Assembly: GCA_951799425.1 (NCBI GenBank)
Contig: OX637391.1
Span: 54,659,069 to 54,723,068 of the forward strand
From: Ilex aquifolium
Lineage: Eukaryota; Streptophyta; Magnoliopsida; Aquifoliales; Aquifoliaceae
Reading direction: 5' to 3'
Length of the DNA stretch: 64,000 nucleotides
Shown here piece after piece: positions 4,631 through 59,809 of this stretch. The translations under genes were made by a program, and so were the position numbers. The stretch's first letter is position 1. The number at the start of each line of letters is the position of its first letter. The notes under the pieces are model-generated. The model searched no databases and had not been told where the DNA came from. It saw only the letters and a list, made by a program, of their open reading frames with translations.

Positions 4631-10056
<5,426 letters not shown>

Positions 10057-19699: not shown

Positions 19700-20042
19700 C
19701 AAAAGATAATAGTATGAGAGAGAAAGGAAGAGAGTTATATGAGGGATGATAGTCTTAGGGTTGTAAAAAGAATGAAAGTCTAATTATGACCATCAGATTA
19801 CAACGATTTGAGCCGTGAAAAGTTCAAAAAAAAAATTTAGCTACTTTATTATATATATATAGAGAGAGGGAGAGAGAGGAGATGAGATAGTGTGTGTTTA
19901 AAAGCCTAAAAGACAGTAGAGAGAGAGAGAGTTATATGAGAGATAGGAGTATTAAAGTTAAGTCCAATTATAATTGTCGGATTAAAAACCTGAAAATAAT
20001 CTGAGTTGTGAAAAACAAAACAAACTTTTCTAACTACTTTAT

Positions 20043-20113
<71 letters not shown>

Positions 20114-20279
20114 TGAGATAGTGTGTGTTTAAAAGTCTAAGAGATAGGAGAGAGAGAGAGAGTTATATGAGAGAGAGTGTTAGAGTTAAGTTCAATTATA
20201 ATCGTCGGATAAAAAATCTGAAAATGATGTGAGCCGCGAAAAGTTTCAGACAAACTTTTCTAACTACTTTATTATATTA
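19700..20279. repeat. Tandem Helitron 5'-end modules with TA and GA microsatellites
   Basis: Three successive modules of roughly 190 bases, each GAGAGAG...AGTTATATGAGAG...AATTATAATCGTCGGAT...GCGAAAAG...CTAACTACTTTATTATATA. (TA)n lies at about 20042-20068, followed by (GA)n to 20109. Corresponds to 31580-32149 in copy 2, where the TA run is longer. Confidence 0.7.
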
Positions 20280-23022: not shown

Positions 23023-23533
23023 CTATCCCAATCATCATCAGGCTACCTATCCCAATCATGATCAAGCTAACACACAAACCAGAAAATTGCGACCCAGTGC
23101 TTTTTCTCTTGAGCTATCCGGTTGTCCATAGCCTACACTCGCGTCTATATGAGAGAAAGTAATAATGTAAAAGTGATACTATGTCATTAACACGTGGTAT
23201 TAGTATTTAATTATAAATAATAGTTAATCCTATCCACTGCTAACTTCTATATTTAACAACTAGCACATTAGATTATAGGAGTTCACTAATTCAAAATTTT
23301 GCTTGTAATTAATTGGAGTTATTACATATCAATGATAACATAGTATTGCCCTTCTATCCAATGCAAGACTAAACTCGATACAATAGCCCTTCACTGCTCA
23401 CTCTTTCAAGACAAAGGTATCATATACATATAGTTCTTTGAAAACATATTACATATTTGAGTTTTGGCATTCAAAACATACCCCTATTTATTTTCCAAAA
23501 AACTTACCCCTATGCTACATCATCTAATTTACT

Positions 23534-23760
23534 TGGCCGCTGAGTTTTCTGGATGTGTCCTATAATCAGATTTTGGGGCCATTTCCAGATATGACAGTAT
23601 TTCATTTGTTGAAAGAGTTACATCTTTCCAACAATCGGTTACGGGGGATGCAATCCAAAAGTATCGGGCAACTTTCGAAGCTTGAAATTTTAGATGTCTC
23701 TTCAAACTCATTAGAAGGCATAATATCCAAAGCCCATTTCTCAAGTCTCACCAATTTAAA
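23534..23760 (+). pseudogene. LRR fragment, fused in frame to LINE RNase H
   Basis: As 10993-11217 but with CAA in place of the stop, so a single open frame 23555-24187 (210 codons) joins about 68 residues of LRR (SYNQILGPFP, LKELHLSNNRL, SIGQLSKLEILDVSSNSLEG) to the LINE piece (FVGSLRVL, LKISVDGYSKGNPG). The upstream half of the LRR protein is missing, so this is most likely dead, though the chimeric frame is open. Confidence 0.75.
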
Positions 23761-24584
23761 GACTGAGTTTGTAGGTTCTCTTAGGGTCTTGATTCCTCGG
23801 TCTCGACCTCTTCGCTTGGTTGCTTGGACTCGTGCTGTAGCGGGTTGCTTGAAGATCAGCGTTGACGGTTATTCTAAAGGCAATCCGGGGCTGTTTGCGA
23901 CAGGTGGTGTTATTCGGGACCATCAGGGTCGGGTACTTAGGGATTTTGGCTTATTTCTGGGGTATCAGCCTATTCTGTATGCAGAGTTGCAGGCTGTTTG
24001 TGCTGGGTTGGAGTTGACCGCAGATTTGGGAGCTTCAGAGTTGGTAGTGGAGTTAGATTCAGCTACAATGGTTTCTGGGTTTCTTCTCAGGGTACTGGGT
24101 CCTGGGTTTATGCTTACCTGCTTGGTCGGATTCGGCTTTTGTGTGCTTCTCTCTCTGCTCGCGTCTACCACGTCCTACGGGAGGTGAATCAGGCTGCAGA
24201 CTTCATGGCTAATTGGGCTTGCTCTCAGCAACTCAATCAGCGATTCCTTGATTCGTCATCCCTTCCTTCTGGGATTGGTGGTATCCTCGCCTTGGACGCT
24301 CGACAGACTCCTCATGTTCGTCGTTGAATTTTATTTTAATTGATGTTTTATGTTATTTTGTTTTGTGGGGATTCCCCACTTTGCTTTTCTATTTATTTAT
24401 TTTTCATGCTTTTGGTGATGAGTCACTACCAAACTTTTGCTTTGACTTTCTTCCACTTTTGGAGGCTTGGCTCTATGTCCTCATCTCTTGTACATTTTTC
24501 CTTTTAGTTATATATACAAGTAGGGGTTCTGCCAAACCCCCCACCCACACTGGGTGGCTTTGAGAGAAAAAAAAAAAAAAACAA
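23761..24584 (+). mobile_element. 5'-truncated LINE 3' end, copy 2
   Basis: Copy of 11218-12030, with the same one-base deletion splitting the RNase H frame, the same 3' UTR (CCCCCACCCACACTGGGTGG) and a longer A-tail (24566-24582). Confidence 0.85.
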
Positions 24585-24597
24585 GTTGTGAAGATCT

Positions 24598-26147
24598 TTT
24601 TTTTTTTTTCGGAAAATAAATATTCAATAGATCAAGAAGAGAGAATACAAGCAAGGGGATAACCCTTACAAAAAACATGGCCCAGTCCAGAGCAAAGAAA
24701 ACCCAAACAAGTCATAAAGAACAATGGCCTAGCAGACATATGCAAACAAAGCGCCCAAGAGAGGAATTTAGGAGGAAGTAGAGGCCTTGAGCTTAAACTT
24801 CCAACTGAATTCCTCTCCAAAGGACCAAAAAAATCGAGAAAACAGACAGCCTGCAATAGTGGGCAGCACCAAGGGAAGCACCAACAATAACCACACCATA
24901 GGTCCAAAAAACAGAGAGAAAAACCTGTGACAGTGGGCAGAAAATAGGGAAGCAGACAACCTGCAACAGACCCAACAACTTCAGCAGGAACACTGGCCAA
25001 GCAAACGGAGCAACCACAACGGGAAAACTGGCCAAGCGGGCACAGCAACCCACAACAGTGGGCAACACCAAGGGAAGCACCAACAAAACGTCACCATAGG
25101 TCCAAAAAATAGAGAAATCAGAGTGGGTAGCCTGCAACAGTGGGCATCACCAAGGGAAGCACCAACAAAAATCCTCACCATAGGGCCAAAAAATAGAGAA
25201 ACAATGCAAACTGACCATGCAAACACAGAAACCATCACATGAGTTAATAGAGATAAGAAGCGGGGAGATTCCATAACTGGCTTGTAAGCAGGTTGTTGGC
25301 GGTAGCTTTGAATTTCAAGGTAGAAACTCTGCTCCTTATAGTCTGATGGATCAGATGGCTCAGTGCAATCGGGTCGCTGTATTGATTTCGAAATCTTCTA
25401 GAATTCCTTTCCATTAAAATATAGTAGACTGTGGCTGCCAAGCAAATTCTATGAATCAAATTTTGCATTGATTTCCTTTTCCAATTGATAGCAGCCCATT
25501 CAATGAGATCATTCCAAGGTTTGGGTTGCCAGAAAAATCCACAAGTGAGCATAATATTTATCCAGACTCTTGATGAATAATTGCATTCAAAGAACAAGTG
25601 GGAGTGAGACTCATCTGCAACTCTGCAAAGGATACAGGTAGTGCCCAAATGGGCTGCATAAGATTGAATTCTATCAAGGGTACTCAGCCAGGACCTAACA
25701 GCTAACCAAAGGATGAAGCTCATTCTAGGGATTGCATTTCCAGACCAAACAAGCTTATACCATGGAACTGGGGAACTCCTCTGTCTAATATGCTCCCAAG
25801 CTGATGAAGTGGAGAAATTTGAGTTAGAAGAGAGGATCCAGTTAATCTTATCCTCCGTGGAAGGATTGGGAGAATATGAAGGCATTGTGCTAGTAATAAC
25901 GTGAGAGGAAGAGGAGGAAGAAGGTGGCCATTGCCATTGGCAATGATTCTTTTGACAAGAGACTCTTTTGGCAGACCCCTGTCAAGAAGAAAATCAGCAC
26001 TACAAACAAACATCAGGGGGCTAAGGGGGTGCCAATTATCATACCAGATCATAGTACCTTCACCATTACTAATTTTGTGGACCATTAGTGGCCTAGTAAT
26101 CCATCTATACTTCAACAAATTTAACCAATTCCAAGAGCTAGGTTGAC
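24598..26147 (-). mobile_element. 5'-truncated LINE (second family), copy 2
   Basis: Uninterrupted version of 12040-14291. Open frame 25885-25244 (213 codons) carries the zf-RVT C-terminus (CILCRVADESHSHLFFEC, SRVWINIMLTC); upstream part 26157-25720 reads WITRPLMVHKISNGEGTMIW in another frame. Minisatellite 24840-25205 lies in its 3' UTR. T-run 24599-24610 is the poly(A) tail. Confidence 0.85.
24840..25205. repeat. Minisatellite in LINE 3' UTR, copy 2
   Basis: Same degenerate 80-100 base units as 12285-12660. Confidence 0.65.
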
Positions 26148-26965
26148 AATTGAACAATTAAGTTGGTGTTCATATTGTCCAAGGTTCCCCTAGCAAGCAT
26201 TTATGACGTGGTACGAGGATTGATTTTATCTTACATACATTAATGAGGCAACCTTGAATTTTTTGATTAAGTGTTTGGATCTCGAACGAATATCACAAGA
26301 CAGGTGGCTAATGTTTTCTGTGGAACTCTTCGAGTGATGGACTGCACCGATAGTGAAGGTGGTTCTTCAAGAATTTGGATTCTTAGAGTTGTAGCCATCT
26401 TAAGACCATAGTTTGGAATATATTGGGTCAGCATCCACCTAATATTGATTTGGTGTGTCATAAATAGATTTACAAGTCACTAGACTTTGTCTTGATAGAT
26501 TGGTGAAGCGATTGATCGTTGAGTCCTTCCATGAGCAGGGAAGACGCGGGTAGACACACATAAATGATGCGGGCCAAGATATAAACTCTTGAAAGATAGA
26601 GAGGGCTCTTGAAAGGTAGAGAGGATTATGGTAACTCATAAGGGCAGATTTGCATGTGAGACTTGAAGAGAGTAAGTAGATCAAAATCCAGGGAGAGGTT
26701 TTGCTCGTATGGTTTACATATGAGGGGGAGTTTGTTGAATAATTACATGTGAGAAGCTCAAATCAAATTGAAAAAGAATTGAAAGAGTCTCAATAACCTT
26801 TGAATAGTTTTAGTAGTGATTTGATAGCAAATATGAAAATCTAGTAGTATCTAAATAGGATGATCATAATCATCACTTACAACTCCCCCTTTCACTATAT
26901 CTTGTTGATCTATTTCATCATCGAAACGGAAGAGAAGGGCTTATTTTAATTTACAACATAATTTC
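26148..26965 (+). mobile_element. Truncated copia-derived element, copy 2
   Basis: Copy of 14292-15130: internal text, purine tract GAGGGGGAGT at about 26722-26731, LTR start TGTTGAATAATTACATG at 26733. Confidence 0.55.
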
Positions 26966-27702
26966 CTCTATTTTTTAGTCATTTGACCATGTGAATTAGT
27001 TGTGGGGGCTAAGACACTTGAATTTCATGTCCAAATTGTTATTCAAAATAAACAATTAATCTTTAAAAGAATCACAAAAAAAATTAGAATCGATCCCAAC
27101 ATTATTGACTCGATCCCAAGCGACCCTATTTTGTAGTAAACTCACTAGACTAATTTGCAGTCTAACCCATAATGTAATAAGTTAATATCCTTTAGCTTTA
27201 ATTCTTTGAAGTGAATAGAACTATCACAATATTTCCTCACCAATGGCTTCACCAGCAATTCTTTGATTGTTATGAGTAAAGCTATCAAACTTATTGACAT
27301 AATAATGATGGGGTAGTCGTTGAGCGCTCTTCCTTGCGCCATCCTTTTTCTTAACCAACAAAAAAAAAAAAAATTGATAGTCTTAATGAAAAAACTCAAC
27401 AATTACAATAATGCTATACAATCATCATGTCAAAGTCACATCTTCAGTGGTTTAGTTCAATTTTTAGATACAAATGGCATTAGTGGTTTTTTTTTATTGA
27501 TGAAGACACAGAAGTTGATACATGAATATTTTGACCAAGCACTATATCTATTGCGACAAGATATTCAGGTTGATTGATAAATTCACATCCACTCCTCCAA
27601 AGGTTAGACCGTTTTGGAGGTGGTACTTGACTTTGGGCTTGTTAGTCTTTTTAGACTCTTACGACTGCAGTATGATGTTGGAGTATGTTCATTATTAAAT
27701 TA
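26966..27702 (+). other. Relic of the subtilase upstream region, copy 2
   Basis: Matches 15131-15855 and 3770-4295. No gene. Confidence 0.5.
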
Positions 27703-28204
27703 CTTGTAATTGTCCGTGCCTGAAGGCACTACGTTACTCATAAAAAATTTTAAATATTTTTTTTATATATAAAGACAATGTATTATATAATTTCAAAAAT
27801 ACAACGATCAAATTAATATTGTTTAACCTGTATGCAGAACATATATAATCAAACTTTTATATAACGAAAGTCACGCTACAACTACTGCAACATATTAATT
27901 CAAAAAATATGAGAAAATATAATTATTATTAATCAAACATCCACAATTTTAACATTTTTAATAAACTTTATCTCAAATTTAAAAAATATATAATTATTTT
28001 GTTTTTATGTAGGTTTTGACCTAAAGTTCATAAATTTATCTTTGGACCATTTTTCCAATGTGTATTCATGTAACTTTTGTGAGGAAAACATCCAAAAGTT
28101 TCCCATGAATTCTTGTAAATTTAAAAAAATTTGTTGAGAAATTAAAATCAGTTTCCATTTGAGCTCAACTTAAATATATGTAAAATTCAATCGAATTTAA
28201 GTTT

Positions 28205-28935
28205 GTGTGGGGCTATTCCCACCCCCACAAAACTCCATTCCCAACTCCATTTAATTTTTTATTATCAAACTATTAAGACCACCTCTTCTATATCCATCTC
28301 ATTAGTAACTAAGTCCACCCCCTGTTACATACACCACATTTAATAATTAAACTCACCTTATATTTTATCATAATTAAGATTTCATCTCATGCACTCACAA
28401 AAATATTTTTTTAATATTAATTTTTCTAATGAGATATATGTTAGTATTACTTCTTAATTTAATTCTATGTTTGATTTCCTGTTTGTTGTGTGTATTTTCA
28501 TTATTTTCGGTATATTTTAATATCTCTGTCAAGTTTAATAATATATATATATGTTTTCAGATTATTTATTGTTTTTTTTATCTTGTTTAGGTGTTGCATC
28601 TATGTTTTTTATTTTTTTTTCTTATTCAATTTTATGTTTGTGCTTGATACTTTTTTTTTTCATGTCTAGTTTTGCGTCTGGTGGTTTTGCGTTTTGTAGT
28701 TTTGCTTATTCCTTTATTCCTTTAATTGCTTGGTTTTTTTGTTTCCTTCTTGTTTCGGTTTTCTTCTTTTTTTTTTTTCGTTGTTTCTTTCTTTTCTTTT
28801 TAAAGAGGATGCATGTAGCATGAGGTAAGCTTAGTTAATAATGAGGTGGGTATAAAAAATGTGGACTTCGTAGTTTGATGATGAGAAATTAAATGAGGTG
28901 GAAATAGAGATTTGGGGGAGGGAATAACCCCACCC
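28205..28935. mobile_element. Long-TIR MULE-type MITE, copy 2
   Basis: Same ends as 16358-17104, with TTTAAGTTT at 28196-28204 and 28936-28944. T-rich centre shorter by about 16 bases. Confidence 0.8.
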
Positions 28936-29834
28936 TTTAAGTTTAAGCAAGAGTTTATACTTTATACTCAAAGTCAAATTCAGCTCAATTCGAGTCTTAA
29001 TCATAATTATGTCAAACCGAAAATTAAATTTAAGTTCGATTCAATTAACACTTCTATCTTAAACTTATAAACTAATTCTTATTTATTCTTGTTCACTGTG
29101 ACGCCATAAGTTCTTCTTTTTTTTTTTTTTAATTTATTTATTATTTATTACTTTTACAATCAATTTTAATTTGACTTCAACTTGGATACTCATAAAATTC
29201 AAGCAAAGTTAAGTTTAAGTAAAAATATATATTTTATACTCGACAATCCAATTCAACTCAATTCAAATCCAAATCAAAATCACTTCAAACTGATTATTGA
29301 GTAAAATGAAAGAATTCTTATAATTTTTGGGCGGGAAAAAAATTTGGAGGAGGAATTTCGATTGTTTGATCAATATTCTTAAAACAATCTGAACCACGAA
29401 AAGTTAAAGACAAATAATGCTAACTCCCTTAGTATATAAATATATCACAAATTACATATATATTATTCGTTTATTATACCATTCGAATGTTGTAGCATTT
29501 TTATTTCAATAGAAAATATGACCTATATTATAGTCATTCGACTCGTTTTAACGCAAAGAATCTGTATTTAAAATTCATTTGTTTATTTGAAATTTTTAAA
29601 AATAATCTTTAATTAGAATAATAATTAACGACCTAATTAATGTGTAGTATGAGATTGAGTGAGATAGAGAACTATAAGAGAGATAAGAGTCTTAGAATTG
29701 TGGAAAAATGAAAGTCTTATTCAAAAAATTGGGGAGGGGGGAGGAAATTTTGTATTAGGACCGTCGGATTAATATTTCTTTAAGTGATCTAAGCTCCGAA
29801 AAGTTAAAGACAAATAAATCTAACTACTTTATTA

Positions 29835-30195
29835 GGGCATCTCCAACCCTTACTCAAATTTAGACTCAAATTTAAATTTGAGTAAAAAAGTTTAAAACAT
29901 TTGCTTCAACCCTTGACTCAAACTTATACCAAATCAAGGCAAACTCATTTATTTACTCAAATTATGGGAGACTTAAATCTTTACTCAAATTTTTAATTGT
30001 GAGATTTTACCATCTTTTAAAGATCCAATGGTCATCCTTATTCCCTTTTAAATTTGTGTATACCCTCATTTAAATTTGAGTCTCTCATTTTTTAAATTTG
30101 AGTTTGTCTATTGGAGTCTTTTATTTCAAATCAAGCTTTTACTCAAATGTTAATTTAAATTTGAGTAAAAATTTGAGTTATGGTTAGAGATGCTC
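29835..30195. mobile_element. Harbinger/Tourist-type MITE, copy 2
   Basis: Same ends as 18003-18351, TTA at 29832-29834 and 30196-30198. Confidence 0.8.
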
Positions 30196-31705
30196 TTATA
30201 TATAGTGGTCATTACCCGTACTTGAAGACACTATACAATAAACAAAAAAATCTTAAACAATTGCCCAAATTCAAAAAGAATGACCTAAAATATTCATACC
30301 AATTTTTTTTTTTAAATAACATGAAATATATCATCAATCATATCCTCCATATTAATGGAACTGTCATAAAAATATATAAAAAAACTCCCCAAAACAACAC
30401 TATATACAAATGCCTCTGGAAAAAAATAAATAAATACTAACATAGCCCATTAAAATTTATAATTTTTAAGCAATAAATAAAATATTGTTCATTTATAAGA
30501 CTAACAAATGTATTGCCTCTACCACCACTCAATCCAATAACACAACATAATTATAAACCCAACCACCTTATTTTCAATCCATCCAATTTCCACTTAATAA
30601 ATAACTCAAGTAAAAAAAAAAAAATACTAACAGAACACAATTAAATTCACAATCTTTAAGTAATAAATAAAATCAACCAAATCATGCTCATTTATAAAAC
30701 TTATGAATTTATCACCATTTAATTCCAAAATAACACAATATAGTTATAAATTTAATCACCAAATGTCCAGTTTTTCACATATAAATAAATATACACAGAA
30801 ACACACCCCACACATTTCTTTTTTGGTTACCAACAAACCCAGCTAACTAATAACTGTTTTTATTAGAAATACAATAATTCAAGTTTTTAAGATAAAATAA
30901 TAATAAATTAATGTTTAATTAAAAAATAGGGAAAAAATCACAGACATCCCCTGAATTTTGACAATATTACACGGACACCTTCTGACATTTTATAAATAAC
31001 ACGGAGAACCTAAGATTTGAAATTCATTGCACGAAAACCTCCTCTATCTCCCTTCTATCAATGTTGCTAACTGCAATTGATAATTTCATCCCAATTTTTT
31101 TTTATTTTTTTACAATTGTCCTTCACCAAATTTAGTACAAAAACTAATTAAACATTTAATAAAATTTGATTTACTACCCAAAAAATTGATATAATTTAGT
31201 ACTTCAAAAAATTGATTAAATGAATTTTAATATTAATTTGATAACAAAAAAATTAATTTGATATTAATTTGACAAACTTGAATAAAATTAGACAAAATTA
31301 AATGTCAATTTTTGATAAAATTATATATTACTTTATGATCTAAGGTTCATTTCATGTTGAATATTATTTGGTGTTTATAGTTAATATGCTATTTTTTATT
31401 TACATTAAGTATTATTTACAAATTAAGAAGCAAGTGACAAAATACATGTCGTCAGATATATAAAAACTTTGAATTAGTTTCATGAAATAAAAAATTGCAT
31501 AACATGTATTTTTATATTTTTGATGGAGTAAATAATAAAAAAACAACATAGGGAAAACAAAAACAAAAGATAATAGTATGAGAGAGAAAGGGAGAGAGTT
31601 ATATGAGGGATGAGAGTCTTAGGATTGTAAAAAAAATGAAAGTCTAATTATGACCATCAGATTACAACGATTTGAGCCGCGAAAAGTTCAAAAAAAAAAT
31701 TTAGC

Positions 31706-31707
<2 letters not shown>

Positions 31708-31785
<78 letters not shown>
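31708..31785. repeat. (TA)n then (GA)n microsatellite
   Basis: About 50 bases of TA/AT followed by about 28 bases of AG, at a Helitron 5'-end junction; the copy-1 counterpart near 19850 has a much shorter run. Confidence 0.85.
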
Positions 31786-31788
<3 letters not shown>

Positions 31789-32218
31789 TGAGATAGTGTG
31801 TGTTTAAAAGCCTAAAAGACAGTAGAGGGAGAGAGTTATACGAGAGATAGGAGTATTAGAGTTAAGTCCAATTATAATTGTCGGATTAAAAACCTGAAAA
31901 TCATCTGAGTCGCGAAAAACAAAACAAAATTTTCTAACTACTTTATTATATAAATATATATAGAGAGAGAGAGAGGAGATGAGATAGTGTGTGTTTAAAA
32001 GTCTAAGAGATAGGAGAGAGAGAGAGTTATATGAGAGAGAGTGTTAGAGTTAAGTCCAATTATAATCGTCGGATAAAAATTCTGAAAATGACGTGAGCCG
32101 CGAAAAGTTTCAGACAAACTTTTCTAACTATTTTATTATATTATATAGATTAATTGAATCACCAGCTGTAACAAATAAATCCATACAGCTGAACAAACAA
32201 TTCCACAATATCTATCTT

Positions 32219-32718: not shown

Positions 32719-37708
<4,990 letters not shown>

Positions 37709-42038: not shown

Positions 42039-43245
42039 CTAGTTATTTCCCGTGCCTGAAGGCACGAAGAAATAAAAAAAATGATCAACAATAAACAAAT
42101 TTGTATTCACACCCAAAATCAAATTACAAAGATAGAAGATAGAGAAATGAATTTAAGTACCAATTGTAGTGGAGGGCGAGCAGTGGTAGTTGTAGTGGGA
42201 GATAGTGATAGTTGTGGTGAGTGACAACAACCATTACTAATGGTGGAAGCCATAGGTGGCAAACGGTGATAGGGGTGATGGTGGTGGGTAGGTGGCAGAA
42301 GTGGTGGTGATGGTGGTAGTGGTAATAAATATAAGAATAAGATAAAGATGGTGGTGGGTAGTTACGGTTAGGGTGGTGGGGATAGTCGTGGTGGTGGTGG
42401 TGGTGGTGGTGGTGGTGGTGATGGTCGTGGGGGGGGGGGGGGTGGTGGTGGGATAGTGAGGATGATGGTGGTAGGGATAGTGATGGGACAGTGGCGATGG
42501 TGGTGATAGTGATGATGATGGTGGGAGGTGATGGTAGTGGGGATGATGGTGGTGGGGCGGTGGTGGTGGAAGGATGGCGACAATGGTGGTGGTGGTGGGG
42601 CAATATGGGTGGTGGGGCGATGAGTGGGTTGGTGAAGGTGTGGTGGCCGCAGTGGTGATGGCGGCGATGATGGTGGTGATGGTGGGGTATTGGTGGAGGT
42701 GATGGTAGTGGTGGAGCGATGGTGGTGATAGTTGTGGTGGTGGGGTGGCAGTGGTGGTGGTAGTGTTGGTGGTGGTGGGGCGATGGGGTGGGTGGCGGTG
42801 GTGGTGGGATGGTTTTAAACACCACTTTTTTTAAAAAAAAAAATACTTATGAGAAGTTATAAGTTCTAGAAGTATTTTTAAAAAATGAGCAATGCTATAT
42901 GAACCTTATTTGAGGACCTAATATGAGGACCTAATGATGTGGCTTCAATGCAACTATTGGATTAGTTGTGACTTCCAATGTTAGATGTAGTCCACAACCA
43001 ATCCAATGGTTGTACATCATTAGGTCCATAGATTAGGTCCCCAAATTAGGTTCAAATAGTATTTTCCTTAAAAAATTACTTCAAACACACCTTTAGGGCC
43101 TTATTTTCTTATTAAATTTGAGGTGTTAATATTAATCGTCGGATTAACTTTAAAATAAAATTTTAAAACGATCTCAACCGCAAAAAGCAAAAGTCATTTT
43201 GTTTATTTTTTGAAATTTGAATTGTATTGTACTTTATTATATAGA
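42039..43245 (-). mobile_element. Helitron with TGG minisatellite inside a copia LTR
   Basis: Minus strand: TC at 43245-43244 (TCTATATAATAAAGTAC), CTAG at 42042-42039, hairpin CGTGCC-TGAA-GGCACG at 42051-42066; host A before, T after. Interior 42160-42810 is TGG/GGT repeat, including a run of about 16 G at 42430-42445. Holds the MITE 42887-43067. Same family as 1-806 and 2358-3360. Confidence 0.88.
42887..43067. mobile_element. MULE-type MITE inside the Helitron
   Basis: 181 bp; ends GAGCAATGCTATATGAACCT and, reversed, GGAAAATACTATTTGAACCT; 9-bp duplication TTAAAAAAT at 42878-42886 and 43068-43076. The sister Helitron at 2358-3360 has the empty site. Confidence 0.85.
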
Positions 43246-48641: not shown

Positions 48642-48681
48642 GGTACGTAGTGTCGTTAAAAAACTTCTTTATTTTGGTTCT

Positions 48682-49237
48682 TGATGATGCACAATTTTGA
48701 CCTTGCACACCACTAGTCAAGTAATTTAGAATTGAGTAATAATTAATGTAGAAAGAGACTGGATTTATAGTGGTTCAGTCAGTTGACCTACGTCCACTTT
48801 GGAATGGCAGAGAGTTGCCGGTAGTTTATTGATTCCGATGAACGGAGTGTTACAGACTGGAGAGGAAAAGGAGATTTATGCTGTGTAGAAGGTGATGCCC
48901 CCCAAGTGTTGGTGGGGCTTACATTTTATATTCAGTCCTCAACCGAATGGAGCTACTAAGTGGCCATACTGAGCTATTCTAGTGGGTTTTGCGGATTCTC
49001 CTCAACGGGTGTGACCGTTGAGGAGCTCTCCACAAGACCGGGTCTCCCTTTGACTGCTTCCAATGTGGGTAAGGGAGGTAAGGGGTCTTGAATGTTCTCT
49101 GGATCTCGTAGCTAAGCTGGGGTAGCTCCATGGTGAATTTACTTGAACCTGGGAATCTCATTGGGCTTGCTGGGTCTTCATGGGTCTGAGCTTTTAATTG
49201 CAACTGGGCTTCTAGGCCTTTTGGGCTTGACCCATCA
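48682..49237 (-). repeat. 3' LTR (element orientation)
   Basis: 556 bp, TGATG...CATCA. Identical by eye to 59041-59596. Confidence 0.97.
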
Positions 49238-49458: not shown

Positions 49459-49465
49459 TATAAAT
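49459..49465 (+). promoter_or_regulatory. TATA box of the antisense gene
   Basis: TATAAAT 244 bases before the ATG at 49703, followed about 15-30 bases later by CTTCTTCTTC, a usual plant start-site context. It lies inside the retrotransposon but outside the LTR, so the antisense gene seems to have its own promoter. Confidence 0.55.
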
Positions 49466-49702
49466 GTAGTCTTCTTCTTCATTTTGCTCATTTCTTGAAA
49501 ATCCATCTCTTGAAAGTCTTGAATGGCCATTCTTGAAAAACCTTGAAGACCCACTCTTGTAAGCTTGGTTCTTTCCATTCCATTGAGAGAGGTAAGGTTT
49601 GAGATCTTTCAAGCTCATTTTGTGGGTATTCTTTGTTTGGATTTTTTGAAGTGGGTATTGGAGATTTTGAAATAGGTAGGATAAGAAAACTCCATTGGTG
49701 CC

Positions 49703-51299
49703 ATGGGGGATTGTAAAGTTGGGGCTGAAGAAGGTAGTTTTGGAGCTTTGGAGGTTGCAAGAGTTGAAGGAGGAGGAGGAGGAGAACACCCCAGTTCAGC
49801 CGCTGCTGCGCGCGCGCCACAGCAGTCCGCCCAAGGAGCTTCAGGCGCTGTTTTGGGCGCTGGTTCAGGCTCCTCTTCCATGGGTTTTGGTTCTTTTAGC
49901 AGGCTCTCCAACCTGGGTACGAATGGGGGAAAGATGGTGGACTACGTAGGCGAGATGGGCAGCGAAAAGGGGGCTGTCCTGGGCAGTTTCTGCGCGCTGG
50001 GCAGCTGCCTGGGCGCCTGTTCTGCTGCTGTGGACAGTCCGAATGTGCTGGGCAGCAGCCTAGGCGCTGGGGTTGAGGTCCTGGACAGCTCAGGCACGCT
50101 GGGCAGCAAAGAGGGGGCTGTCCTGGGCAGTTTCTGCGCGCTGGGCAGCTGCCTGGGCGCCTGTTCTGCTGCTGTGGACAGTCCGAATGTGCTGGGCAGC
50201 AGCCTAGGCGCTGGGGTTGAGGTCCCGGACAGCTCAGGCACGCTGGGCAGCAACTTGGGGGCTGTCCCCGCTGTCCTGGACAGCTCAAACGCGCTGGGCA
50301 GCGCTGATTTTGGTGTCGCGGACAGCTCAGGAGGGCTGGGCAGCCACTTTTCTGCAGCACAAAGTGCTAATTTTCGGTCCATGGAGCGTCAGGGAGAGTT
50401 GGGTAGCAGCCTGGGTACATGGGCAGCTATGGGCACCACTTCAGGCGCTAATTCGGACACCATAGGCGCCTCTCCAACTGCTGGGCTGCTCCCTTTTGGC
50501 GAGCAGAGGGGATCAGGCACCTCTCCTACTACTGGGTTGCCTTATTTGAACGAGCAAAGACGGTCAGGCACTCATCCCAATGTTGGGTTAGACACTTCAG
50601 GCGGCAGGGAAACTTTGGGTGTTACCTTAGGTGATCAGGAGCTCCCTGTGACTCCTCCAGCCCGAGCTCCTCAAGACTTCACAAGTGGCGGCTTAGACTA
50701 CTCCCTACGGCCCCGCAAGAAGAAACGCAAAAGTAAAGTGGGTCCCGACGAAGATGAGTCTAAGGTAAGCACTCTTTCCAGTTTATTCAATTCGAAGGAG
50801 GATATCTCGAGACTTGTTTATGCTTATCGCATTCCTCCGACTGTGCTGTGCCGTCGGGCTGAGCCGAGTGAGTTTGCTTGCGACGATTCCTCTGGTGATA
50901 TTGTCGTTTATGAGGAGATGCTTGAGGCTGGGTTAAGGTTTCCCATGTCCTCTCCCATTTGTCGTATTTTGCACTACTTTTCCTTGACTCCGGGGCGGCT
51001 AGCGCCTAATGGTTGGAGAGTTTTGTTGGGCTTTCTTGCGTTGTGGAGGAGAGTGCACCAGGAAGATGCTTCTCCTGTGGAGTTCCATGCAGCATATAAT
51101 TTGAGCGAGACTCCTACACCGAACAGGGGGTGGTATTACTTCACCACAAAAATTGGTACAGTGCTCACGGGTCAGCGCTCTAATTGTACTGGCTGGAAAT
51201 CTAGCTTCTTCTTTGTTGGTGGAGAGTGGGCTGCAGAGGCCGATAGAGCTTTGGTGCCCATTCGGTGGGATGCTGCCAGAAAACCCGGTACGCTGCACC

Positions 51300-51330
<31 letters not shown>

Positions 51331-52807
51331 TTATTATTTTTTTTTTTATGTGCTCACGATTCTTCTACAGATATGTCTGTCCTCACCAAGGACCAAGCAT
51401 GGAAGCTGGAGGCCGTGAAGGCTTGTCCTGCCAAAGATGTGGGTGCTCTTTTGCCCAGGGATGCCAGGGATGCCAAGGCCGTTGCTCCCTCCCCGAAATT
51501 TGGCGCCTCTGCTTTGAAGAGAAAAGGTATGTTGAATCTCTTATACATCCCTTTCTTTGACTTGGTGTTATCCATCTAGATAATCCTTCCTTGCCTTTGC
51601 AGCGAATAGAACAACGGTAGCGTCTCGCTATCGTAGTAGGAGTTCCCCTCCTCCTAAGGTGGCGAGGAAGGGTGATACCCCTCAGGTGACTTCTTCAACG
51701 GCTCCGCCTGTGGTGTGCTCTCCTGGGGGTTCTCCTACGGTGGTGCCTACTCAAGGAGGGACTCCTCCTGTCGCATCTCCTATTCCAGGGTCTTCCTTTT
51801 TGGCTTCATCTTCTGTCCCTTGCTCATCTACTCCCCCTGCGACGGCTTCTACGAGGAAGCCGATACAGAATGGTCCCATGCTGGGCAATCCGCAAGTTAT
51901 TAGGGAAAAACTTGGGAGATTCGTATTTCCACCCGAAGTTAATGAGATTAGTATGCTAGGCACTCAGGGAGTCATCAACTCATTCTTGGAAGGACTGGCT
52001 CAGGTAAGGGTCTGCAACCCCCTTTATTCGATCATCCTTTACGTATTTCGTTATTCATCTTCTTTATTTCTTTTCCAGGCTTCGACCGCGTCTGTAGGTT
52101 TGCTCACAAGGGTCCAGTTCTATAACCATCTGAAGCTTAGTCATGAGGCTATAACAAAGCAGCTTCTAGCTGCTCAGGAGAAGATTGTCGAGATTGAAGC
52201 TGCTGGCGGGACTTCCCAAGTTGAGTTAGTGGCGTCCCATGAGAGGGCGGCTGAGCTTAAGGCTGAGCTGTTGGCGACCCGTGAGAGGGACGCGCTCAGA
52301 GAGGCAGAGCTTGTAGAGGCCCGTGAGAGGGCGACCAAGCTTGAGGCTGAGCTGTTGGCGACCCATGAGAGGGACGCGCTCAGAGAGGATGAGCTTGTTG
52401 AGACCCGCAAGAGGGTCATGCTCAGTGAGGCTGCTTGTTTGAGAGCCGAGTCGGAGGTGAAGGCAGCTCAGAAGAAGGCTGAGGTGGATCTTGAGAGGTT
52501 TGCAGAGATGCGAGCAAGGGCCATGCTCAGCGAGGCTGCCTGCGTGAGTGCAAAGGCAGAAGTGAAGGCAGCTCAGGAGAAGGCTTCTCAGGCTGAGGTG
52601 GTTCTGGAAAATAGCCTTGCCGATGCTTTTATTGACGGTTATAAGGAACTCCGGGGAAGGATTTCTGTTTCTTACCCGAGTATTGACCTTTCAGGCTTCG
52701 TGCCTACTGAGGCGCCTGCTGATGGAGATGGAGGTTCTGATGCTGATGATCACGATGCTGAGGACGAGGAGGAGGAGGAGGAGGATGACGACCGCGAGAG
52801 TAGTTAG
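49703..52807 (+). CDS. Antisense extra gene of the retrotransposon: gypsy-type transposon domain plus coiled coil, four exons
   Basis: Exons 49703-51287, 51371-51526, 51603-52003, 52079-52807; introns are GT-AG of 83, 76 and 75 bases, phases 1, 1, 0, giving 956 residues. N-terminal 260 residues are low complexity, rich in Leu-Gly-Ser (LGSSLGA, CALGSCLGAC) with a 48-residue tandem repeat. About 369-450 match the plant 'putative gypsy type transposon' domain: VYAYRIPPTVLCRRAEP, YEEMLEAGLRFPMSSPICRI, LAPNGWRVLLGFLALWRR. A basic stretch RPRKKKRKSK (about 340) could be a nuclear signal. Exon 4 is a long coiled coil with Arg/Glu/Ala repeats (ELLATRERDALREAEL) and ends in an Asp/Glu run. Retand/Tat elements are known to carry such antisense frames of unknown function. 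It converges on gag-pol with stops 250 bases apart. Splicing is inferred from frame continuity only; intron 3 has no stop and could be retained. Confidence 0.85.
49958..50245 (+). repeat. 144-bp tandem repeat, two copies
   Basis: Units 49958-50101 and 50102-50245, nearly identical, encode the 48-residue repeat of the antisense protein. In-frame by length. Confidence 0.9.
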
Positions 52808-52884
52808 AGTGCTGGGACTTTTTTTTTTTTTTTTGAAAGACAGTTTATAGTCTTGCTTTTGTACTGTTACTCCTTTTGAAACTG

Positions 52885-52890
52885 AATAAA
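52885..52890 (+). terminator. Poly(A) signal of the antisense gene
   Basis: AATAAA 78 bases past the stop at 52805-52807. Confidence 0.6.
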
Positions 52891-53057: not shown

Positions 53058-56000
53058 TCATTGATAATACCTCTTCAGGTGCTCCGCATTCCATGGATGG
53101 AGTAAAGCCTTTCCCTCCGAATTCTGGATCTTGTAGGTGCCCGGCCTCACTACCTCTGTTATAAGGTATGGTCCTTCCCAATTTGGCCCCAGCTTCCCTT
53201 CGTGTGCATCCTTTGTGGCGAGGATCACTTTCTTGAGGACCAAGTCCCCTGGTTGGAAGGAACGTGGCTTCACCCTCGAATTGTAGTACTTTGCCATGCG
53301 TCGCTTGTATTCCGCGTTGCGGACCACGGCCATCTCTCTTGCTTCCTCCACCAAGTCGAGGTTGATGCGTAGTCCTTCATCATTGGTGATGGGGTTGTGG
53401 TGCTGCACCCTTAGAGAGTGTACCCCTATCTCTACTGGGATGACCGCCTCAGTTCCGAAAGCGAGGGAGAAAGGGGTCTCCCCAGTAGGGGTTCTTGGCG
53501 TAGTTCGATAGGCCCATAATACGCCTGGCAGCTCGTCCACCCAAAGACCCTTCGCTTTTTCAAGTCTTGTCTTTAAGTTACGTAGCACCGTTCTCACCAT
53601 GACTTCTGCTTGTCCATTTGCCTGCGGGTGTGCTGGGCTGGAGTGAGGTTGTTTTATCTGAAGGTCGGTGCAGAAGGAGTTCAGCAACTTGTTGTCGAAC
53701 TGTTTGGCGTTATCACTTACCAATGCATGGGGAATCCCGAATCGACATACCAGATTCTTCCAGATAAAATCTTTGACCTTTATATCTGTGATTCTGGCCA
53801 AAGGTTCCGCTTCTGACCACTTAGTGAAATAGTCGACTGCCACCACCACAAACTTGCACTGTCTTTTACTGAGGGGCAAAGGGCCTAGGATGTCGATGCC
53901 CCACTTGGAAAAAGGCCACGGGCTTAAGATGGTTGTCAGCTCTTCTGGTGGTTGTCTGGGCACAGTGGCAAATCGTTGACATTTGTCACACTTTTTGGAG
54001 AATTCTTGAGCGTCCCTTACCATGGTAGGCCAAAAGTAGCCTTGCCTGAGTGCCTTGTGGGCAAGGGAGCGCCCTCCAGAATGATTCCCACATATTCCCT
54101 CGTGGATCTCTCGCAGTGCATAGTGAGCCTCTTCGGGTGATAGACAGCGTAGCAAAGGTAAGGAATAACCTTTCTTGTATAGAGTGTCCTGGAGGATGGT
54201 AAACTTGGAGGCTCTCACCCTCAGTTTTCTAGCCTCTAGGGCATCATCTGGCAGCACACCTTCTTGGAGGTATGCCCTTATTGGGGTCATCCAATTTGAT
54301 TCGGCCGATGCACAGTTGATGTTTACGGCCTCTATGTCCAACTTGCTTGGCTCGAACTGGTGCCCGATGAATGCTGGTTCTCCTGGTGGGGCTTCCACGG
54401 ATGAGGCAAGTCTTGCAAGTGCATCCGCGGCCATGTTGTCTTCCCTGTGAATATGGCTTATCTCGAAGTAGCGGAACTTTGTGATGATGTTCCTTGCCAT
54501 GCCAAGGTACTCTTGCATCTTGGCTCCTTTGGCTTCGAACTCCCCCTTCACTTGATTGACTATCAGCTGGGAGTCGCTGTACGTGGAGAGGTGCTGGGCT
54601 TCCATTTCGACCGCCAATCTTAGTCCTGAGAGGAGGGCTTCGTACTCTGCCTCGTTGTTTGAAACAGCGAAATGAAGCTTTATTGCATATTTGATGGTGG
54701 TGCCATCTGGGCTGATCAAGATCAGTCCCGCTCCTCCTCCACCACTAGTTGAGGAACCATCTACGTAAAGCTTCCAAAGCAAAGGAGAGGAGGGTCTATA
54801 AGCTAAAGTGGATGACTGGGCTTCTGGTAGAGCAGCCCGGGCACCAGAGGGAACAATCTGGGCGCCTGAGGGAGCAGCCTGGGCGCCTGGGGAGGAGGCC
54901 TGGGCGCCTGCAGCAGCCTGGGCGCCTGGGGAGGAGCTCTGGGCACCTGAGGGAGCAGCTTGGGCGCCTGGGGAGGAGGCCTGGGCGCCTGCAGCAACCT
55001 GGGCGCCTGGGGAGGAGCTCTGGGCGCCTGAGGGAGCAGCTTGGGCGCCTGGGGAGGAGCTCTGGGCGCCTGAGGGAGCAGCTTGGGCGCCTGGGGAGGA
55101 GGCCTGGGCGCCCAGTTTGAGTGTCAGGGAGTCTTTGTTATGGCTTTGGTTATCCTCGCTGAGCCTATGGGTATCCTTGCAGCTCCCTTCTTCCGTTGGT
55201 GTAAGCTCAGCAATGAAGTCCGCCAAAGCTTGTGCTTTGATGGCTGTCCTTGGTTGGTACTGAATGTCGAACTCGCCCAGCTCCACTGCCCATTTGAGAA
55301 GTCTACCGGATACGTCCGGCTTTCCCAGGATCCTTTTTAGGGGTTGGTCTGTGGTGACCACTATGCAGTGGCTCTGAAAGTAATGTCGCAGCCTTCTCGC
55401 CGTCGTGATAAGAGCGAGCGCCAGTTTTTCTAGTTCCGAGTATCTGATCTCTGCCCCCCGATATGCCCTGCTCACATAATAAATTGGTCTCTGCACTCCA
55501 TTATCATTCCTGACAAGCACAGAACTTACTGCTGATGAAGAGGCAGAAAGATATAGGTGAAGAACTTCTTCTGGAGTGGCATGTGACAGGAGGGGAGGTG
55601 TGGCCAGGTAAGCCTTGAGCCTTTGGAAAGCCTCCTCAGCCTCAGGTTCCCATTCAAATGCCTTTCGGAGAATTTTAAAGAAGGGGAGACATTTGTCTGC
55701 AGACTTGGAGACGAACCTATTGAGTGCTGCGATTCTCCCATTAAGGCGCTGGAGCTCCTTGGTTGAGGAAGGTGACTTCATATCAAGGATAGCCTTGATC
55801 TTGTCAGGATTCGCCTCAATTCCTCTCTGGTTGACCATGAAGCCCAAGAATTTGCCTGACCCTACGCCAAAGGCGCACTTCTCAGGATTGAGCTTCATGT
55901 GATAGGACCTTAGGACATTAAAAGTTTCTTGAAGGTGATCAACGTGGTCCGCTGCTGCAAGGCTTTTCACCAGCATGTCATCCACGTATACCTCCATTGT

Positions 56001-58976
56001 TCGCCCAATCTGAGACTGGAACATCTTATTCACTAGCCGTTGGTAGGTTGCTCCTGCGTTCTTCAATCCGAATGGCATGACTCTGTAACAGTATGTCCCT
56101 TTTGGAGTGATGAATGACGTCTTCTCCTGGTCTGGAGGGTGCATGCTAATTTGGTTATATCCAGAATAGGCATCCTGGAAAGTGAGCAACTCATGTCCTG
56201 CGGTGGCATCGATGAGGAGGTCAATTCTCGGCAGCGGGTAGCTGTCTTTCGGGCATGCCTTGTTGAGTTCTGTGAAGTCGACGCAGAGGCGCCACTTTCC
56301 ATTGGTTTTAGTGACCATTACCACATTGGAGAGCCACTCAGGATATGCTACTTCTCTGACGGCCCCGTTGTCTATCAGTTTTCCCACTTCCTTATCCATA
56401 GCTTGGGCCCTTTCAGTGGAGGCGCCCCTTAGCTTTTGGCGAACAGGCTTGTGGTGTGGGTCAACATTGAGGCGGTGCGTGGCCACTTCTGGGTCGATGC
56501 CCTCAAGATCTGCATGTGACCATGCAAAGACGTCCATGTTGTGTTTCAAAAAGTCCATCAGCGGGCCAACAAGATCTCCAGAGAGAGAAGAGCCAAGATA
56601 CACTTTTCTGTCTGGGTGCTCTTCATCCAAGACTACAGGAGTAAGCTCCTCCACCGGTTTTCCTCTTTCTGTGGTGGAATCATCCCTTGGGTCAAGGACT
56701 TCCACCTGCAACGCTTCTTGGGGCTTTCTGGCCTTCATAGAGGAGACATAGCATTCCCTTGCTACCACCTGGTCTCCCTTGACCTCTCCGACTCCATTTG
56801 GTGTTGGAAAGCGGAGGATGAGATGATAGGTGGAGGGCACAGCTCTTAATGTGTTTAGAGCAGGTCGCCCCAGTATGATGTTGTAGGCTGATGGGCAATC
56901 TATCACCAGGAAATTGACCATAACTGTGGAGCTTCGAGGTGCTGCTCCGGCTGTGACAGGAAGAGTAATGGACCCAAGGGGATATACTTTCTCCCCTGAG
57001 AATCCAATGAGGGGAGACCTAATAGGCTGCAGTCTCTCCCTGCCCAGGTTGAGCTTGTCATAAGCCTCTGCGAATAGGATATCCGCAGAGCTGCCACTAT
57101 CCACCAGGATCCTGCGCACCTGAAAATTGGCCACTGTCATGGTGAGCACCAAAGGGTCATCATGGGGGTGCTGGATCCCCTCAAGGTCCTTATCTGAGAA
57201 AGATATGACCACACTGTCGCCCTGCTTCGGCACCTTGGATGGGCGTGTCTCGTCGAAGTGTCTTGCTTTTCTGGCGTGGGCCTTCATTGCAGCAAATGAC
57301 TCTCCACCTCCTGCTAGTCCTCCAGAGATGGTGTGGATCTCTCCGATGGGCTGCTGATCTTCCTGATTGCGAGGTGGAGGTGGTGCTTGTCCTCTTCCGG
57401 CTACATACTGGCGAAGATGTCCACGTTGGATGAGGTCTTCAATTTGCCTTTTAAGGTCATAACAATCGTCAGTGTCATGACCATGGTCGCGGTGGAAGCG
57501 ACAGTACTTGCTGGGGTTCCTGCGGTTTGAGGGAGACTTCATCCTCCCAGGCCACTTTACTGCGGGGTCCTCCTGGATCTGGCATAGGATGTGCCCGACA
57601 GCGGCGTTGAGGGGAGTAAAGGCTTGCCGGTCCCTGTGCGGGGCGGGACCAAGTCGATCCCTCTGAGGAGCAGGACCAAGTCGGTCCCTGACAGGTACCC
57701 TTTCTGTCCTGTTGTGCTTGTTGCTAGTCTCCTTCCTGTCGTCTCTGTCTCTCTCCTTTCTCTTCTCCCCTGTTCTGGATGTTTCCCCTCGTCTGGCCCT
57801 CGTGATGGCTTCTGCATTCATGTATTTTTGGGCTTTGGCTAGTAGCTCCGGCATGCTCCTTGGTGGTCGCTTCATCACCGAAAATAGGAAACTTGAAGAA
57901 CGGAGGCCTCCCAAAAATGCAGTCATGGATACCTTGTCGTCGGGTTCTTCTACCTGAAGGACCTCCTCGTTGAAACGAGTGAGGTAGCTCCTCAGGCTTT
58001 CGTCCTTGTCCTGCTTTATGCTGAGCAGGTGGGTGACGGGCTTCTGGTGGCGGCGCCCTCCGATGAAGTGTGATACGAACGACCTGCTCAACTCAGCGAA
58101 GGAGGATATAGAGGCCGGAGCGAGCTTGGCAAACCACTGTCGAGCTGATCCCTTCAAAGTGGTTGGGAATGCTCTGCACATGATTTCGTCGGGGACACTG
58201 TGCAGCTGCATTAGGGTCTTGTAAGTCTCTAGGTGGTCCAGTGGATCTTTCTTCCCGTCAAAGGTCTCCACCGACGGCATTTTAAACTTCTGAGGGAGGG
58301 GATAGTTCGCCACGTCAGGCTTGAATGGGGTGTCTGTACGCCTTACCAGGTAATCTACGGTCTCTGGCCCCTGTGCCTTCATGGCGTTGAAGACATCACC
58401 CAATTGATTCTGTACCTCCTTGATTTTCTCGTCCCAGTGGTTGGGTGCTCCTCTGGAATGGTCATGGAAATGGCTCCCATGCTCCAGGCTTTGGTTCTCG
58501 CCCTCATCCTCTTGGAGATGGGGATCCTCGCCATGGAAAGCAGGAGGAGGGTGAGGGACTCCCTCATGTTGGGCTCCCCTGTGTGGGGCGTCAAAAGGGG
58601 CTCCCAAGGGGGCGCCCAGCCCTGCATGGGCGCCTATGTGTGGAGCACCGGGGTGTGGAGCACCAGGGTGTGGAGCACCGGGGTGTGGAGCACCGGGGTG
58701 TGGAGCACCAGGGTGTGGAGCTCCCTGATGTCCAGGGTGTGGAGCTCCTTGGGGTCCTCCATGCTGCGCACCACCAAGCTGTGCTCCACCTTGTCCAGTG
58801 AGCATAAGTTGCAGTATCTGCTGGTTTTGGGCTACTAGCTGCTGCATGGTCTCCAGCATTTGCTGTGGATTGGGAGCTGGAGCATTTGGGACAGGGTTGG
58901 TAACCGAAGGAGCAACCTCCTCTTCTCGTGCAGGATGATCTTCATGCTGGTTCATCAACCGGGTAGTGATTGCCAT
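53058..58976 (-). CDS. Gag-Pol polyprotein, Tat lineage
   Basis: One open frame of 1972 residues. N-terminal Gly-Ala-Pro-His repeats (about 64-135); gag capsid domain (about 245-350, GSARQWFAKL); CCHC-like knuckle YCRFHRDHGHDTDDC (about 488); protease with Asp626 (VDSGSSADILF); reverse transcriptase with YVDD at 997-1000; first RNase H (about 1140-1255), where the usual catalytic Asp position reads LYLSAS; linker of GAQ repeats (about 1285-1380); second RNase H with Asp1406 (LYVDGSS), NNEAEYEAL, YSDSQLIV and NMAADALA; integrase with HEGICGNH / CDKC zinc site (about 1625-1665) and D1695, D1755, E1791 (35 residues between the last two); GPY-type C-terminus (about 1934). The ATG is the first one after a 64-base leader beyond the PBS. 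Gag and Pol are in one frame with no shift, so processing is by the protease alone. Confidence 0.97.
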   Translation of the reverse strand: MAITTRLMNQHEDHPAREEEVAPSVTNPVPNAPAPNPQQMLETMQQLVAQNQQILQLMLTGQGGAQLGGAQHGGPQGAPHPGHQGAPHPGAPHPGAPHPGAPHPGAPHPGAPHIGAHAGLGAPLGAPFDAPHRGAQHEGVPHPPPAFHGEDPHLQEDEGENQSLEHGSHFHDHSRGAPNHWDEKIKEVQNQLGDVFNAMKAQGPETVDYLVRRTDTPFKPDVANYPLPQKFKMPSVETFDGKKDPLDHLETYKTLMQLHSVPDEIMCRAFPTTLKGSARQWFAKLAPASISSFAELSRSFVSHFIGGRRHQKPVTHLLSIKQDKDESLRSYLTRFNEEVLQVEEPDDKVSMTAFLGGLRSSSFLFSVMKRPPRSMPELLAKAQKYMNAEAITRARRGETSRTGEKRKERDRDDRKETSNKHNRTERVPVRDRLGPAPQRDRLGPAPHRDRQAFTPLNAAVGHILCQIQEDPAVKWPGRMKSPSNRRNPSKYCRFHRDHGHDTDDCYDLKRQIEDLIQRGHLRQYVAGRGQAPPPPRNQEDQQPIGEIHTISGGLAGGGESFAAMKAHARKARHFDETRPSKVPKQGDSVVISFSDKDLEGIQHPHDDPLVLTMTVANFQVRRILVDSGSSADILFAEAYDKLNLGRERLQPIRSPLIGFSGEKVYPLGSITLPVTAGAAPRSSTVMVNFLVIDCPSAYNIILGRPALNTLRAVPSTYHLILRFPTPNGVGEVKGDQVVARECYVSSMKARKPQEALQVEVLDPRDDSTTERGKPVEELTPVVLDEEHPDRKVYLGSSLSGDLVGPLMDFLKHNMDVFAWSHADLEGIDPEVATHRLNVDPHHKPVRQKLRGASTERAQAMDKEVGKLIDNGAVREVAYPEWLSNVVMVTKTNGKWRLCVDFTELNKACPKDSYPLPRIDLLIDATAGHELLTFQDAYSGYNQISMHPPDQEKTSFITPKGTYCYRVMPFGLKNAGATYQRLVNKMFQSQIGRTMEVYVDDMLVKSLAAADHVDHLQETFNVLRSYHMKLNPEKCAFGVGSGKFLGFMVNQRGIEANPDKIKAILDMKSPSSTKELQRLNGRIAALNRFVSKSADKCLPFFKILRKAFEWEPEAEEAFQRLKAYLATPPLLSHATPEEVLHLYLSASSSAVSSVLVRNDNGVQRPIYYVSRAYRGAEIRYSELEKLALALITTARRLRHYFQSHCIVVTTDQPLKRILGKPDVSGRLLKWAVELGEFDIQYQPRTAIKAQALADFIAELTPTEEGSCKDTHRLSEDNQSHNKDSLTLKLGAQASSPGAQAAPSGAQSSSPGAQAAPSGAQSSSPGAQVAAGAQASSPGAQAAPSGAQSSSPGAQAAAGAQASSPGAQAAPSGAQIVPSGARAALPEAQSSTLAYRPSSPLLWKLYVDGSSTSGGGGAGLILISPDGTTIKYAIKLHFAVSNNEAEYEALLSGLRLAVEMEAQHLSTYSDSQLIVNQVKGEFEAKGAKMQEYLGMARNIITKFRYFEISHIHREDNMAADALARLASSVEAPPGEPAFIGHQFEPSKLDIEAVNINCASAESNWMTPIRAYLQEGVLPDDALEARKLRVRASKFTILQDTLYKKGYSLPLLRCLSPEEAHYALREIHEGICGNHSGGRSLAHKALRQGYFWPTMVRDAQEFSKKCDKCQRFATVPRQPPEELTTILSPWPFSKWGIDILGPLPLSKRQCKFVVVAVDYFTKWSEAEPLARITDIKVKDFIWKNLVCRFGIPHALVSDNAKQFDNKLLNSFCTDLQIKQPHSSPAHPQANGQAEVMVRTVLRNLKTRLEKAKGLWVDELPGVLWAYRTTPRTPTGETPFSLAFGTEAVIPVEIGVHSLRVQHHNPITNDEGLRINLDLVEEAREMAVVRNAEYKRRMAKYYNSRVKPRSFQPGDLVLKKVILATKDAHEGKLGPNWEGPYLITEVVRPGTYKIQNSEGKALLHPWNAEHLKRYYQ
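54825..55115 (-). repeat. Minisatellite coding the GAQ linker
   Basis: Units of 18-42 bases built around TGGGCGCCTG (on the + strand), coding GAQASSP, GAQAAPS, GAQSSSP. Lies between the first and second RNase H. Confidence 0.85.
58600..58745 (-). repeat. Minisatellite coding GAPHP repeats in Gag
   Basis: Five or more 15-base units GTGTGGAGCACC(G/A)GG on the + strand, coding GAPHP. Confidence 0.9.
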
Positions 58977-59020
58977 TGGTTCAGTAAACAGAATGTTTTA
59001 AAATGAGAATTTTTTCGATT

Positions 59021-59040: not shown

Positions 59041-59596
59041 TGATGATGCACAATTTTGACCTTGCACACCACTAGTCAAGTAATTTAGAATTGAGTAATA
59101 ATTAATGTAGAAAGAGACTGGATTTATAGTGGTTCAGTCAGTTGACCTACGTCCACTTTGGAATGGCAGAGAGTTGCCGGTAGTTTATTGATTCCGATGA
59201 ACGGAGTGTTACAGACTGGAGAGGAAAAGGAGATTTATGCTGTGTAGAAGGTGATGCCCCCCAAGTGTTGGTGGGGCTTACATTTTATATTCAGTCCTCA
59301 ACCGAATGGAGCTACTAAGTGGCCATACTGAGCTATTCTAGTGGGTTTTGCGGATTCTCCTCAACGGGTGTGACCGTTGAGGAGCTCTCCACAAGACCGG
59401 GTCTCCCTTTGACTGCTTCCAATGTGGGTAAGGGAGGTAAGGGGTCTTGAATGTTCTCTGGATCTCGTAGCTAAGCTGGGGTAGCTCCATGGTGAATTTA
59501 CTTGAACCTGGGAATCTCATTGGGCTTGCTGGGTCTTCATGGGTCTGAGCTTTTAATTGCAACTGGGCTTCTAGGCCTTTTGGGCTTGACCCATCA
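59041..59596 (-). repeat. 5' LTR (element orientation)
   Basis: 556 bp, identical by eye to 48682-49237. Begins on the minus strand at 59596 with TGATGGGTC. Confidence 0.97.
59281..59289 (-). promoter_or_regulatory. Candidate TATA box of the retrotransposon LTR
   Basis: Minus strand TATAAAATG within the 5' LTR, the only good TATA there; expected to drive gag-pol. Confidence 0.55.
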
Positions 59597-59809
59597 GTTC
59601 TTATGAATAGATAGTATGCGACCCAATTCAAATGTAATTAAAATACAACTTTAACAACCAGTGGATATTTGATCCAAAAAAATGGGTTAATTACAAAATA
59701 CCCCCTTAAAGTTTGGGTTATGTTTCAATCAGCTCCTCGTAGTTTTAATTTTGACAATCTACCCCTTTCAAGTTTTAACATATCTCAATCACCACATTGC
59801 CGTTATTCT

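Follow-up and report, generated by a model that had tools for sequence, protein, structure and literature searches.

The window, by which we mean the whole stretch of 64,000 nucleotides of Ilex aquifolium DNA that was analysed, carries on its minus strand a Ty3/gypsy LTR retrotransposon and, within that element, a candidate split gene that reads along the plus strand (Table 1). The two LTRs are identical at 556 of 556 bp, a 5-bp TSD (GTTCT) is found at both flanks of the element (48677–48681 and 59597–59601), and gag-pol is one long uninterrupted frame. A preliminary description of the locus had called the retrotransposon intact, and these features agree with it: the element looks complete, intact and young. 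The antisense gene lies between the 3' LTR and the end of gag-pol and thus, as had also been proposed, inside the element and outside the LTRs. Its exons join to 2871 nt that encode 956 amino acids followed by a stop codon, with no internal stops; the junctions originally drawn, with four exons whose phases join and three short GT-AG introns, proved exact.

Table 1. Features of the element and of its antisense gene (window coordinates).
Feature	Position	Strand	Remarks
3' LTR	48682..49237	-	identical to 59041-59596 across 556 bp
TATA-like motif	49459..49464	+	upstream of antisense gene, just inside 3' LTR
Exon 1	49703..51287	+	start codon, low-complexity N-terminus, basic stretch, TRP28 domain
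TRP28 (Transposase_28, PF04195) match	50903..51043	+	aa 401-447, Pfam
Intron 1 (predicted)	51288..51370	+	83 nt, GT-AG, GC 0.22
Exon 2	51371..51526	+	joined frame
Intron 2 (predicted)	51527..51602	+	76 nt, GT-AG, GC 0.38
Exon 3	51603..52003	+	joined frame
Intron 3 (predicted)	52004..52078	+	75 nt, GT-AG, GC 0.37; if kept, in frame without stop
Exon 4	52079..52807	+	charged 14-residue repeats, acid tail, stop codon
AATAAA poly(A)-like signal	52885..52890	+	motif match
gag-pol open frame	53058..58997	-	1979 codons stop to stop
5' LTR	59041..59596	-	element reads along minus strand

The domains of the gag-pol frame occur in the order Gag, RT, RNase H, second RNase H (RVT_3) and integrase, with Pfam matches to RT_RNaseH at 1142–1243, RVT_3 at 1412–1530 and rve at 1695–1791. 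Retand elements are recognized by an RNase H of archaeal type placed after the first RNase H and before integrase, a feature that Ogre shares (PMC6317226); RVT_3 sits in this very place, between RT_RNaseH and rve, and is presumably the archaeal-type domain. The size ranges given for Retand are 315–1194 bp for the LTR, 7380–12869 bp for the internal region and 2933–6566 bp from POL to the 3' LTR (PMC11963269), and the corresponding 556, 9803 and 3820 bp of the present element all fall within them. The identical LTRs and the TSD are also in keeping with the recently active Retand elements (PRARE) of that survey. An antisense TRP28 ORF between pol and the 3' LTR, which is also looked for in Retand, is present on the plus strand with PF04195 above its cutoff. 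The order of RNase H, second RNase H and integrase, the element's dimensions and its antisense TRP28 gene all point the same way, and the element appears to be Retand-like and of the Tat clade, although such agreement falls short of proof. Ogre elements are recognized by an ORF with a plant mobile domain (in 57% of Ogre) and by an intron between gag-pro and rt (PMC6317226). Here, PF10536, the plant mobile domain family, which the preliminary description had suggested searching, has no match at E ≤ 1 in the 956-residue protein, and gag-pol is a single open frame. Within that frame, tandem units of 21, 42 and 81 nt at 54830–55112, all in frame, encode a GAQ-rich stretch that links one RNase H domain to the other, and near the N-terminus of Gag (58638–58721) units of 15 nt are repeated in tandem, also in frame.

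Transposase_28, the other family named at the outset, is found in the antisense protein: the match has E 2.3e-9 and 37.8 bits against a Pfam curated cutoff of 26.2, and covers profile positions 1–47 of 69. It is the sole Pfam family at E ≤ 1 in the 956 residues. Exon 4, searched alone in Pfam, gave just two matches, whose E values of 3.2 and 6.5 lie far outside the cutoff; a PDB sequence search gave 0 matches at E ≤ 1, and AlphaFold run on a single sequence (50744–51286) returned a mean pLDDT of 35 and no usable model. Collections of viral and prokaryote sequences held 12 and 39 pattern-matched stretches, respectively, and no relatives, as is expected for a plant element. Rfam, searched across the window at gathering scores, gave 0 matches, and a scan for bacterial promoters and terminators, which is ill-suited to plant DNA, gave none. 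The openness of the exons was compared with 2000 base shuffles read in a single frame: not one shuffle left exon 1 or exon 4 open and seven left exon 3 open, while exon 2, open in 231, is uninformative because it is short.

Residues 734–905 consist to 70% of E, K, R, A, L or Q and include three Pro or Gly. For the long coiled coil of the preliminary description, a simple test of the heptad period gave P 0.65 and six more gave P from 0.057 to 0.79, none of them significant. Tandem repeats that preserve the frame are present in exon 1 (144-nt units, 49956–50344) and in exon 4 (42-nt units, 52223–52432). The gene had also been credited with a TATA box and a poly(A) signal. Both motifs are there; all 8 loci compared, among them the window's own (L001), keep the TATA-like motif, and 6 of the 8 have AATAAA, but in simple base shuffles of their own stretches the chance probabilities are 0.15 for a TATAAA-like motif and 0.09 for AATAAA, so that the pair is weak as proof of a gene.

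The splice signals were evaluated with the reading frame left unused. All stretches of 60–150 nt within the gene that begin with GT and end with AG (n = 1169) were scored by approximate plant splice-site weights, with an optional bonus for A+T content. The three introns of the model rank 1, 2 and 7 among the 1169 candidates by sites alone, and 1, 2 and 3 when the A+T bonus is included. Among the three donors, that of intron 1 scores lowest (rank 7 of 165). Dips of 76 nt that are rich in A+T coincide with the three introns. Joining of the frames requires the removal of introns 1 and 2. Intron 3 has a length that is a multiple of three and contains no stop, so that its removal is not demanded by the frame; because the frame reads through, the case for intron 3 is that of its strong splice sites and its composition. 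Taken on these signals, splicing of all three antisense introns is predicted. One more A+T-rich dip lies in exon 1 (50750–50836), with a donor-like GTAAGC at 50765 and an acceptor-like TTTCCAG ending at 50781; the donor scores highly, but the two sites are 17 nt apart, too near for an intron, and may be a vestige or a cryptic site.

Seven close copies of the antisense gene were compared in the same genome. The GT and AG of all three introns are kept in 7/7, intron 1 being 77–90 nt long, and exons 2 and 3 are free of indels in every copy. It should be noted that these kept splice sites are weak evidence, because the copies are near-identical through recent shared descent. The whole frame is kept in three of the seven (L002, L005 and L006); in L008 it is open to codon 952 and the end differs, and in L003, L004 and L007 it is broken by single-base deletions. 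The preliminary description had looked to synonymous and non-synonymous change across family copies, and among these seven neutrality is not rejected: with variants past 52757 excluded, since two copies end differently there, 31 variants alter an amino acid and 19 are silent, against 34.6 amino-acid changes of 50 expected neutrally for the same mutation types (P 0.17). The close-copy variants were therefore rejected as proof of selection. C>T or G>A accounts for 36 of the 50. The integrase part, compared in six copies (L007, unaligned there, was omitted), shows a similar balance, with nine amino-acid and six silent variants. In L007 and L008 the antisense gene ends differently past the site that matches window position 52758; beyond this end, the integrase part of L008 is near-identical again (four mismatches) and that of L007 does not align.

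More diverged copies were sought by searching the 800-Mb genome at the protein level with the TRP28 stretch, and 150 copies were scored among 7180 first-look candidates. The TRP28 stretch is free of stops in 22 of 25 copies at 92–100% amino-acid identity (the window's own copy counted), in 43 of 65 at 73–84% and in 36 of 60 at 61–70%, a count that covers the TRP28 part of exon 1. Under neutral simulation, the stop-free share was 12.5% at 80% identity (2.1 stops on average) and 1.5% at 66% identity (400 sequences, 3.4 stops on average); the contrast with the observed copies is inflated, as the search is biased towards intact copies, part of the matches are incomplete and frameshifts were left uncounted, but it is so large that it nevertheless supports selection on the TRP28 frame in active lineages. 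Some copies are mosaic (for example, C1:16883913-16886554 and C15:5139931-5142589). In seven of them, DNA identity is 77–79% across most of the antisense gene, yet the TRP28 stretches are 92–97% identical; in 22 others, the later part of the gene has 85–88% DNA identity, yet the TRP28 stretches (scored in 21 of them) have just 75–81%. Such a pattern suggests that subfamilies have exchanged modules.

The literature already treats an antisense TRP28 gene as a hallmark of Retand; what is new, as far as the literature was searched, is the split structure. In the survey of Vicient (2025), antisense TRP28 occurs in 97% of recent Retand clusters, and TRP28 was found in 57 of 104 antisense ORFs, with 11 Smc domains also reported (PMC11963269). 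Those ORFs agree with the present gene in place (pol to 3' LTR), strand and Pfam domain, and the surveyed elements often have a second antisense ORF with an Smc-like match (PMC11963269). Unlike the present gene, however, they are given as unspliced; the survey used ORF Finder, and the word 'intron' occurs 0 times in its available text (PMC11963269). Grande gene23, RIRE2, Silene Retand ORF4 and PvRetro13 ORF2 are likewise antisense ORFs between pol and the 3' LTR, and in Grande the ORF is driven by a promoter of its own and its protein is nuclear (PMC7264820). Introns are unmentioned for any of these in the accessible part of the 2020 review, where the word also occurs 0 times, although the review calls for antisense and spliced transcripts to be examined (PMC7264820). 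No account of introns in the antisense gene turned up in the literature searched, PMC11728184, PMC7730604, PMC3091746 and PMC9289625 included; Steinbauerova 2011 and Gomez-Orte 2013 may contain one. A 2025 review describes plant LTR retrotransposons as generally intron-less and singles out Ogre and EVADE as exceptions (PMC12786077). Spliceosomal introns are thus something that the present element would share with those two; theirs, however, lie on the sense strand, so that some RNA must escape splicing, whereas antisense introns need no such escape (PMC12786077, PMC6317226).

We consider it probable that the TRP28-encoding accessory gene which Retand elements typically carry in antisense is here one split gene of four exons, spliced to give one protein. 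On the strand that does not carry gag-pol, transcription would probably start from a promoter of the gene's own, immediately inward of the 3' LTR, and the host spliceosome would remove the three short A+T-rich introns. The envisaged product is a single protein that begins in low-complexity sequence, continues through a basic stretch and TRP28, and ends in a charged region with an acid tail. The genomic RNA, starting from the 5' LTR, would hold the introns in reverse and hence unspliceable, which is why they would survive retrotransposition; no loss would be possible, and every new copy would inherit them. This logic, already set out in the preliminary description, is upheld, and there is a precedent for a spliced antisense gene in HBZ of HTLV-1, a polyadenylated accessory gene of an LTR element that acts on transcription (PMC1459196). 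HBZ differs in starting within the 3' LTR (PMC1459196), and the likeness is one of working, predicted for the present gene from its splice signals. As for function, the protein would most likely act in the nucleus, on its own element's expression or integration. The basic stretch, the published prediction that TRP28 binds DNA (PMC11963269) and the nuclear location of the Grande protein are the reasons for this suggestion, which we put forward tentatively; that an antisense TRP28 protein is a regulator has itself been proposed before (PMC11963269).

Alternatively, there might be two separate antisense ORFs that are never spliced, with the 'introns' as mere spacers. Both ORFs are present as such a scheme would draw them, one with TRP28 from 49703 to 51418 (571 aa) and the other, of 407 codons stop to stop, at 51584–52807 and passing through intron 3, and published surveys do give antisense ORFs as unspliced (PMC11963269). 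We nevertheless regard the arrangement as unlikely: the spacers are the top-scoring intron candidates of the gene, the TRP28 ORF would stop within an A+T-rich, intron-like stretch, and the region of the second ORF has no known start signal. A capture of a host gene together with its introns, if recent, would also leave introns and a promoter-like motif of the gene's own, as expected when a captured gene lies antisense. This appears very improbable, given that antisense TRP28 is found in nearly all recent Retand clusters of both monocots and eudicots, that the survey reports TRP28 to be absent outside TEs (PMC11963269), and that at least 150 copies were scored in this genome.

The layout bears on a different possibility, namely that it is the antisense RNA, and not a protein, that matters, by pairing with genomic RNA and so making small RNAs or limiting the element. 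A sense genomic RNA would span the whole antisense gene, and double-stranded RNA is thus expected if both RNAs are made; overlapping transcripts and small RNAs are predicted from the layout alone. A role for double-stranded RNA has been proposed (PMC7264820), and the close-copy variants do not reject neutrality. An exclusive role for RNA is nevertheless improbable in our view, since the stop-free TRP28 stretches at 61–70% identity are far from the neutral expectation.

It is conceivable, and to us plausible although short of likely, that across Retand the two antisense ORFs described as separate, one with TRP28 and one Smc-like, belong as exons to a single spliced gene; one family was examined here, from which we infer the state in other species. 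If so, Retand would be an old and widespread selfish lineage that keeps spliceosomal introns by means of a strand that is never spliced in its genomic RNA. Annotation of unspliced ORFs would then have cut one protein apart, with functional guesses built on the fragments. A spliced antisense gene would also have a practical use, in that junction reads from the opposite strand would be a clean marker of where, and whether, it is expressed.

Elsewhere in the window, a segment of about 10 kb is repeated some 12 kb further on (about 10479–20175 and 23023–32041), most of the listed 300-nt blocks being 96–99% identical. Two copies of what by eye resemble exons of a subtilisin-like protease gene lie at about 5928–10056 and 33866–37708, with listed blocks 89–91% alike. 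The open frames at 21–692, 2428–3163 and 42119–42846 consist of simple repeats rich in Pro, His and Thr, that is, of microsatellite-like DNA.
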